Notes under the pieces: model-generated
Databases searched by the model: none
Seen by the model: only the letters and a program-made list of their open reading frames with translations
Told to the model about the DNA's origin: nothing
Translations under genes and position numbers: made by a program
Assembly (NCBI GenBank): GCA_021826525.1
Contig: JAKAZU010000002.1
Span: 1 to 64,000, forward strand
Reading direction: 5' to 3'
DNA: 64,000 nucleotides
From: Thermoplasmata archaeon
GTDB taxonomy: Archaea > Thermoplasmatota > Thermoplasmata > UBA184
Part shown: positions 62,726-63,450 of the stretch, piece by piece
How positions within the stretch are numbered: position 1 is the stretch's first letter
Layout of the letters: each line of letters begins with the position of its first letter

Positions 62726-62734
62726 TTTCATATA
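62726..62734 (+). promoter_or_regulatory. TATA box for initiator tRNA-Met
   Basis: TTTCATATA lies about 28 bases before the tRNA 5' end at 62759, correct spacing for an archaeal promoter. Confidence 0.55.
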
Positions 62735-62758: not shown

Positions 62759-62864
62759 AGCGGGGTAGGGTAGTCAGGAAAACGGACCGGGGATTCTCCG
62801 TCCGCCCTGAGATCCCGACGGGCTCATAACCCGTAGATCCATGGTTCAAATCCATGCCCCGCTA
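62759..62864 (+). tRNA. Initiator tRNA-Met (CAT) with a 31-nt insertion in the D-loop
   Basis: Acceptor AGCGGGG/CCCCGCT with discriminator A, anticodon stem ACGGG/CCCGT with loop CTCATAA, T-arm CATGG-TTCAAAT-CCATG: the AGCGGG start and GGG/CCC anticodon stem are those of archaeal initiator tRNAs. The D-arm is GGG...CCC, but between GTCAGG and AGATCCC there are 31 extra bases (62779-62809, position ambiguous by one to two bases). Removing them restores the usual initiator D-loop AGTCAGGAG and a 75-nt tRNA, so they are probably an intron. Confidence 0.85.
62779..62809 (+). other. Putative non-canonical tRNA intron
   Basis: 31 nt beginning AAAACGGACC and ending GTCCGCCCTG. Flanking TCAGG (62774-62778) pairs with CCTGA (62806-62810), and CGGAC/GTCCG forms an inner stem. 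A strict bulge-helix-bulge is not obvious, so the cut sites are uncertain. Confidence 0.6.
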
Positions 62865-62982: not shown

Positions 62983-63450
62983 ATGGCCGAAACACGGTTT
63001 CCCACGATCGCGGTCGCGACGGACGGTTCGGTCCCCGCGAACGAAGCCTTGGACGTGGCGATCGATCTCGCGAGGCGCTACGGTTCGTCGCTCACCGTAC
63101 TCGCGGTCGCCCCGCTTCAGCCGACCTTTCTCGCGGGGAGCGAGGCTTACGTCCCCCCCACGCCCCCGGTCATCGACCTACCGTACTACCGGCGGCAGGT
63201 AGATGAGGCCCTTGCGAAAGCCCGGGCCGCCGGGATCGCGGAGGTAAAGGGACTCGTCATGGAGGGGGTCCCGATCGACGAGATTCTTGTGCATCTCGAG
63301 AAGCACCCCCCCTCGCTCGTCGTGGTCGGTTCGCGCGGTCTGAGCCGCGGCAAACGACTACTGCTCGGCAGCGTCTCCACGGCGGTCGTTCAGGGGTTCA
63401 AGGATGCGGTGCTCGTCGTGCATCCCCGGGCTACGAAGCCCTCGCCGTAA
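62983..63450 (+). CDS. Universal stress protein (UspA family)
   Basis: A 155-aa single-domain USP: 'TIAVATDGSVPANEALDVAI', 'SSLTVLAVAPLQP', and ATP-binding 'VVVGSRGLSRGKRLLLGSVS' (Gx2Gx9G[S/T]). Likely an ATP-binding dimer involved in stress adaptation. A TATA-like GAAATACAGATACG lies 25-35 bases before the ATG. The end overlaps rpl10e by 20 bases in convergent orientation. Confidence 0.93.
   Translation: MAETRFPTIAVATDGSVPANEALDVAIDLARRYGSSLTVLAVAPLQPTFLAGSEAYVPPTPPVIDLPYYRRQVDEALAKARAAGIAEVKGLVMEGVPIDEILVHLEKHPPSLVVVGSRGLSRGKRLLLGSVSTAVVQGFKDAVLVVHPRATKPSP

Follow-up and report, generated by a model that had tools for sequence, protein, structure and literature searches.

A probable D-loop intron in the initiator tRNA-Met gene of a Lutacidiplasmatales archaeon

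The initiator tRNA-Met gene studied here lies on the forward strand at positions 62759-62864 of a 64,000-nucleotide stretch of contig JAKAZU010000002.1 (positions 1 to 64,000; assembly GCA_021826525.1, Thermoplasmata archaeon), which we call the window. From the sequence and its Rfam match we found that the gene carries a 31-nt insertion in the D-loop. We consider it highly probable that this is a functional and probably single initiator gene of a Lutacidiplasmatales archaeon, and that the insertion is an intron at position 20a/21 which is removed by splicing. The sequences themselves show the intron and how far it is conserved, its covarying structure and the tRNA obtained once it is excised; they also show that no intron-free match turned up in the same-genus genomes searched, and that relatives have the genes for both enzymes.

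Archaeal initiator tRNAs are marked by an A1-U72 pair, three G-C pairs at the base of the anticodon stem and a CAU anticodon. All of these (the stem pairs as GGG/CCC) are present in the exons, where the arms read AGCGGGG/CCCCGCT (acceptor) and GGGCTCATAACCC, as is typical of an archaeal initiator tRNA-Met. Using cmscan, RF00005 was matched at 62759-62864 with 54.6 bits (E 5.3e-9), which confirms the sequence, coordinates and cloverleaf of the initial annotation; the D-loop holds 38 residues in this alignment, compared with 4 in the model. ARAGORN, as run here, did not call the gene and reported only Val-CAC and Thr-GGT in the window. An intron-aware caller written for this analysis found exactly three tRNAs, the initiator and two intact genes, and made no call above the same score on one dinucleotide-preserving shuffle of the window. 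The precursor has a minimum-energy fold of -48.6 kcal/mol (z -3.9 against 200 shuffles). A chance match was rejected on the basis of the RF00005 score, the clean shuffled window and this z-score.

A TATA-box-like CATATA (62729-62734, forward strand) starts 30 bases 5' of the tRNA, in keeping with the earlier remark that a TATA box stands at the right distance. A similar motif, starting between -36 and -22 and mostly at -30, is present in 67 of 81 distinct sequences upstream of intron-bearing initiators found by pattern search (see below), compared with a background of 110 of 5,520 random 45-mers. The majority sequence at this site is CTCATATA. The 81 sequences are not independent, because they come mostly from close relatives.

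The exons were delimited with RF00005, and bulge-helix-bulge (BHB) geometry together with intron-free relatives favours a 5' exon from A1 to A20a (62759-62780), an intron at 62781-62811 and a 3' exon at 62812-62864, all on the forward strand. The 3' exon contains the remaining D-arm, the anticodon arm (CAT, GGG/CCC stem), the T-arm, the 3' strand of the acceptor stem and the discriminator A73. The mature tRNA would read ...TCAGGAA/ATCCC..., with GTCAGGAAATCCCGACGGG as predicted junction sequence; in intron-free relatives the joined form reads AGGAAATCCC, AGGANATCCC, AGGACATCCC, AGGATATCCC and similar. Several boundary choices yield a nearly identical product, and the cut sites are uncertain by about 2 nt. 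The initial annotation was right about the D-loop and the length of 31 nt, but its cut after GTCAGG lies about 2 nt from the one favoured here. Intron-bearing members of the family read AGGAA/A...CCTGAN/ATCCC, where the variable base N was assigned to the intron side because the BHB rules predict the 3' cut after N.

In its minimum-energy fold the precursor forms a cloverleaf in which the D-arm extends via TCAGG/CCTGA into CGGAC/GTCCG, so that both stems named in the initial annotation are present. The former is the central helix, in which TCAGG of the 5' exon (62774-62778, containing G18 and G19) pairs with CCTGA at the 3' end of the intron (62806-62810), and the latter is the intron hairpin (62783-62787 with 62800-62804). 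For covariation we used 44 of 79 distinct intron-bearing matches, those of the commonest length of 71 nt; the other 35, including the 74-nt form of the window, were left out of the alignment because of their length. Over the 44 variants the 14 proposed pairs are formed in 95.8% of cells, and shifting the pair partners lowers this to at most 49.2%. The central helix is paired in all 44 variants (44/44). In the intron hairpin, seven pairs change on both sides, giving 30 such cells compared with 8.9 in shuffles, and none of 500 shuffles reached this number. Between families, the central helix also changes on both sides, from TCAGG/CCTGA to CTAGG/CCTAA. At the 5' site all 44 variants have a 3-nt bulge, which is AAA in all but one and is closed by G-U, A-U or G-C. 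The recurrence of the insertion with a covarying hairpin, and the joined sequence in intron-free relatives, uphold the view that it is a real intron.

By its sequence the window belongs with the Lutacidiplasmatales, as kin of Candidatus Lutacidiplasma (Thermoplasmata, acid soils), because the matches of our DNA pattern for intron-bearing initiators come mostly from Thermoplasmata or Lutacidiplasma; a euryarchaeal-type lineage had been correctly supposed. The pattern found 82 stretches in GTDB contigs, of which 80 were listed with labels: 67 Thermoplasmata archaeon or Candidatus Lutacidiplasma, four Methanomassiliicoccales, three Euryarchaeota, one Thermoplasmatota, two DPANN and three bacteria. 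Ca. Lutacidiplasma silvani AcS3-62 (L155) is among the matches. The nearest genome compared (G001) shares 42% of sampled 31-mers with the window.

The spread of the intron was followed in 400 genomes of the class, including incomplete metagenome-assembled genomes (MAGs), using exact patterns and rows counted by hand. The intron-bearing pattern was found in 73 of the 400 genomes and the short, intron-free pattern in 224. No genome matched both, apart from G054 of the same genus, where a short intron form was counted under both patterns. The same genus has the intron at the same place in 53 of 70 genomes, and the exact search found the intron-free pattern in none of the 70. Among 25 genomes of other genera of the family, nine are with intron, ten without and six match neither form. 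This split follows genus: g33 and g37 have the intron, g32, g34 and g36 lack it, and g35 is intron-free in one of three genomes and matches neither form in two. Outside the family, the intron is present in 11 of 305 class genomes, from five families. Genus g13 of family f13 has the intron in G074 and G094 and an intron-free gene in G105 and G147; since one genus holds both forms, gain or loss may be recent there.

Some matches differ from this picture. G088 (5.2 Mb, outside the family) has an intron-bearing initiator (L079) and also a bacterial-looking intron-free CAT tRNA (L094, C1:2412500-2413050); its assembly may be mixed. Two stretches labelled Acidobacteriaceae (L114) and 'bacterium' (L180) carry the Lutacidiplasma-type intron-bearing initiator and are probably mis-binned archaeal contigs. 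The matches in a Woesearchaeota (L129) and an Aenigmatarchaeota (L161) contig have unrelated D-loop insertions and are candidate DPANN initiator introns. A contig labelled Proteobacteria (L171, 2465-2700) has a degenerate copy of the initiator whose D-loop insertion is unrelated, followed about 130 bases downstream by an intact initiator that lacks an intron; we do not count this match as an intron of the present kind. Beside the intron-free initiator of G090 (L082, C74:700-1700) there are three extra short matches to the initiator 5' part, about 110 bases apart, which possibly form a tandem array.

Several other tRNAs of the same genus gave partial-length tRNA matches. In one relative rated 100% complete (G038), all 42 tRNA matches up to E 10 were resolved as genes, one of them (L250; 73 nt, 71.7 bits) being counted as intact from match length alone, and 11 of the 42 score worse than E 0.001. 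According to our purpose-written caller, 19 of the 42 (about 45%) have introns, 15 of them noncanonical. Twelve genes have an intron in the T-loop only (Arg-TCT, Glu-CTC, Asn-GTT, Ser-GCT, Gln-CTG, Ala-GGC, Ser-GGA, Gly-TCC, Ser-CGA, Arg-TCG, Asp-GTC and His-GTG), Lys-TTT has introns in both D-loop and T-loop, the initiator and Arg-GCG have one in the D-loop only, and four have one in the anticodon loop (elongator Met, Tyr, Leu-TAA and Trp). For Leu-TAA, elongator Met and Tyr the caller gave odd boundaries and the placement was taken from cmscan alignments; Trp was read by eye. The calls of a D-loop intron in Arg-GCG and Lys-TTT each come from a single genome and carry no covariation. The Lys-TTT gene (L324, C11:10060-10320, reverse strand) has apparent introns of 28 nt in the D-loop and about 38 nt in the T-loop; double excision scores 64.3, and six shuffled controls, run on a coarser grid, reach at most 37.1. 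The Arg-GCG gene (L293, C12:78840-79060, reverse strand) has an apparent D-loop intron of 33 nt, a case outside the initiator.

A second relative, G069 (86% complete), has ten T-loop introns. G014, from another family of the order, gave both long and partial-length matches. Of the 20 stretches examined there (L339-L358), 13 were resolved by the caller and seven gave nothing. Two of the resolved stretches have T-loop introns (Ala-CGC and Arg-CCG; L346, L347). In about nine or ten the caller placed an intron within the anticodon loop or beside it, at positions that are rough since it handles one intron, and the rest are intact. The family of G014 thus seems to be intron-rich too.

The 22 T-loop cases from G038 and G069 support a BHB whose outer helix is the T-stem. 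Its bulges measure 3 nt on either side, and its central helix is based on TTC and has 3-4 bp in 20 of the 22. In this set 89.1% of cells are paired, and 74 cells changed on both sides compared with 24.2 in shuffles; the number of pairs with both-side change (10 compared with 8.6) is not beyond the shuffles, being reached in 72 of 500. Twenty of the 22 form the C56 pair, the exceptions being the two Asn genes. G57 faces C in eight of eight cases, while the fourth pair is missing in all 14 cases with A57. The BHB cutting rules place these introns at 59/60, leaving a TTCRAAT-type loop in most. Unless removed, the T-loop introns of the same-genus genomes destroy the T-arm.

A covariance model of these 22 cases (R1) gave five to 14 matches in each of 30 genomes of the family, compared with zero to five in the other 170 genomes of the class sample searched. 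No more than 30 candidates per genome were scored, under strict filtering, and at first look GC-rich genomes yielded many more candidates; G038 was in the searched sample and matches by construction. Three genomes from other families of the order gave 0, 0 and 1. R1 found no T-loop intron in G014, where the caller read two; it therefore undercounts outside the family, which makes the sharpness of the step at the family uncertain. An excess of T-loop introns in the family of the window is likely, its size being approximate. Genomes of f25/g44 (e.g. G122, G143 and G219) form a second group of the class with several R1 T-loop matches each, up to five.

Relatives of the window's genome also provided the evidence on the splicing endonuclease. 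PF01974 was searched in 13 same-genus genomes: nine have two stretches in one open reading frame (ORF), one has a single stretch, one has three including an extra fragment, and two have none. No separate second endonuclease gene is evident by PF01974 in these genomes. The protein has about 350 aa, with two units in one natural ORF. In alpha'2 splicing endonucleases the catalytic Y-H-K triad sits in the C-terminal unit. KTGFKYG, H300 and K331 are invariant in 56 aligned proteins, and from its two units and the Y-H-K residues the enzyme appears to be alpha'-like. Its nearest known counterparts include the alpha'2 endonucleases of Archaeoglobus fulgidus (1RLV/2GJW) and Thermoplasma acidophilum (2OHC). 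In re-examined Foldseek matches, 301 of 304 residues align with 1RLV, and 301 of 314 with the chimeric broad-specificity A. fulgidus chain 3P1Y, which we take to carry a grafted Crenarchaea-specific loop (CSL). The aligned N-terminal unit has no insertion at the Aeropyrum pernix loop site and the C-terminal unit is short there too, so a CSL, the loop to which relaxed specificity is ascribed, was not found. A three-unit epsilon-2 enzyme as in ARMAN-2 is not indicated either, given about 350 aa in two units and 286 aligned residues out of the 386 of 4FZ2. The search of the relatives did not find the crenarchaeal-like enzyme implied by the initial annotation. The best structural match is the (alpha-beta)2 endonuclease of Methanopyrus kandleri, which differs in that 5X89 is titled as a subunit fusion; according to PMC6379350, the Methanopyrus enzyme has neither CSL nor ASL but shows slight cutting of a relaxed motif. 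The ligase RtcB was found in five of five genomes searched.

Noncanonical introns with relaxed BHB motifs (hBH, HBh') are best known from Crenarchaeota, Thaumarchaeota, Nanoarchaeum and ARMAN. Like them, the initiator intron is a short hairpin that lies elsewhere than at 37/38, with a central helix between the 5' exon and the intron 3' end and a presumed cut in a 3-nt bulge; it differs in its host lineage, the Thermoplasmata, and in the two-unit alpha'-like enzyme. In Euryarchaeota, introns are described in less than 10% of tRNA genes, one each and at the canonical place, in PMC4090602. The same source describes permuted tRNA-iMet and tRNA-Tyr in Thermofilum pendens, likewise a disrupted archaeal initiator gene with noncanonical processing, but that initiator consists of permuted halves, unlike the D-loop intron here. 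Among the literature titles and abstract openings searched, which did not extend to subscription papers and GtRNAdb, none names noncanonical tRNA introns in Lutacidiplasmatales. In a term search of the accessible text of the Lutacidiplasmatales genome paper (PMC9287336), 'tRNA' occurs four times and 'intron' never.

We infer the following course of events, from transcription to the exact cut sites, the dimerisation of the endonuclease and its part in the cutting. Transcription would start from the gene's own TATA promoter and give a precursor with the 31-nt D-loop intron, in which C17-A-G18-G19 of the exon would pair with the intron 3' end, followed by the AAA bulge and the intron hairpin. The two-unit endonuclease, as a dimer, would cut the AAA bulge behind its second base and the 3' side at the corresponding position, and RtcB would join the exons. 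Splicing would thereby release G18 and G19 for the contact between D-loop and T-loop.

Several observations weigh against this course. In the precursor of the window the 5' site is a 4x1 internal loop, and the 3' site is a 3x3 internal loop between central helix and D-stem instead of a bulge. The five pairs of the central helix are invariant across the 44 variants and therefore neutral there, and the spliced tRNA, when folded without constraints, does not have a cloverleaf as its minimum-energy structure, as judged by a thermodynamic model of the unmodified sequence. Seventeen of the 70 same-genus genomes match neither form, from incomplete MAGs or pattern mismatch, and are uninformative because exact patterns miss variants and the MAGs are incomplete; the CAT tRNA L094 of G088 falls outside the patterns used. 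Both the endonuclease of the window's own genome and its second-copy status are taken from kin. Moreover, reviews relate the diversity of tRNA introns to the type of endonuclease and confine alpha4 and alpha'2 enzymes to canonical BHB motifs (PMC4090602, PMC4033280 and PMC6379350).

The motif is indeed not a textbook BHB, as already recognized: a 4-bp central helix is present (CAGG/CCTG, extendable by T-A), but the 3-nt 3' bulge beside the exon helix that a strict BHB has is missing. A central helix, a 5' bulge or loop, an intron helix and a precise removal that leaves a tRNA are all found, and by its predicted structure we class the initiator intron as a relaxed HBh' motif, a class named in PMC6379350. 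Some relaxation would be needed, because the 3' site lies in an internal loop. Most T-loop introns may need no relaxed enzyme, since they are near-strict BHBs and a strict motif need not sit in the anticodon loop. The earlier statement that the lineage must splice relaxed motifs is an inference; it fits the initiator 3' site, but most T-loop introns of its kin are near-strict BHBs. The initiator intron would be the real test of relaxed specificity, whereas the T-loop introns would need a noncanonical place more than a relaxed motif.

Could the mature tRNA instead retain the insertion, as a helix that extends the D-arm? In favour of this, the insertion forms a stem in the stably folded precursor and differs only moderately in length within the family. 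Nevertheless we regard this as quite unlikely, since the insertion pairs with G18 and G19 and so keeps them from the T-loop, relatives have nothing at exactly this place, the flanks keep the bulge-helix pattern expected at a splice site, and the same-genus genomes need T-loop intron splicing anyway. A pseudogene or assembly artefact, with an intact initiator elsewhere, might be feared in data derived from MAGs. We give it hardly any credence: exons and TATA-like box are conserved, and we rejected a pseudogene with an intact copy elsewhere because the second-initiator check proposed in the initial annotation revealed no intron-free pattern in the 70 same-genus genomes. An artefact was rejected because the insertion, at the same place in 53 of these genomes, recurs with covarying sequence in independent assemblies.

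Splicing being the preferred reading, the intron might be removed by another nuclease, or the two-unit enzyme might be helped by an undetected second subunit of broad specificity. PF01974 could miss such a subunit if it had diverged, but the 13 same-genus genomes gave no sign of a separate second gene, and nine have exactly the two stretches in one ORF. Furthermore, the homodimeric Ferroplasma enzyme could process a BHB whose 5' bulge has 2 nt and which was set in an mRNA hairpin, as described in PMC8707768, and Thermoplasmata enzymes may therefore be less strict than the rule. We consider this alternative improbable.

Just 3' of the tRNA, an ORF at 62983-63200 of the window starts with ATGGCCGAAACACGG and by eye resembles a universal-stress-type protein.

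Overall, our data point to a conserved noncanonical initiator intron that, according to reviews, should not occur in this lineage and beside this type of enzyme; the wider intron load may be the more interesting part. Ordinary tRNA finding misses such genes, and the tRNA sets of such MAGs can look incomplete, because ARAGORN missed the initiator and 11 of the 42 matches in G038 score worse than E 0.001. We see an even chance that a euryarchaeal-type lineage whose only endonuclease is alpha'-like, with two units and no Crenarchaea-type loop, carries an intron load of crenarchaeal scale, including a relaxed motif in its only initiator gene. If this is true, the rule would be wrong that a lineage's capacity for introns is set by subunit type or specificity loop, and broad specificity would have been gained by another route. 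The essential initiator tRNA and many other tRNAs of the family would depend on the removal of noncanonical introns, with an alpha'-like enzyme gene as the only one detected.
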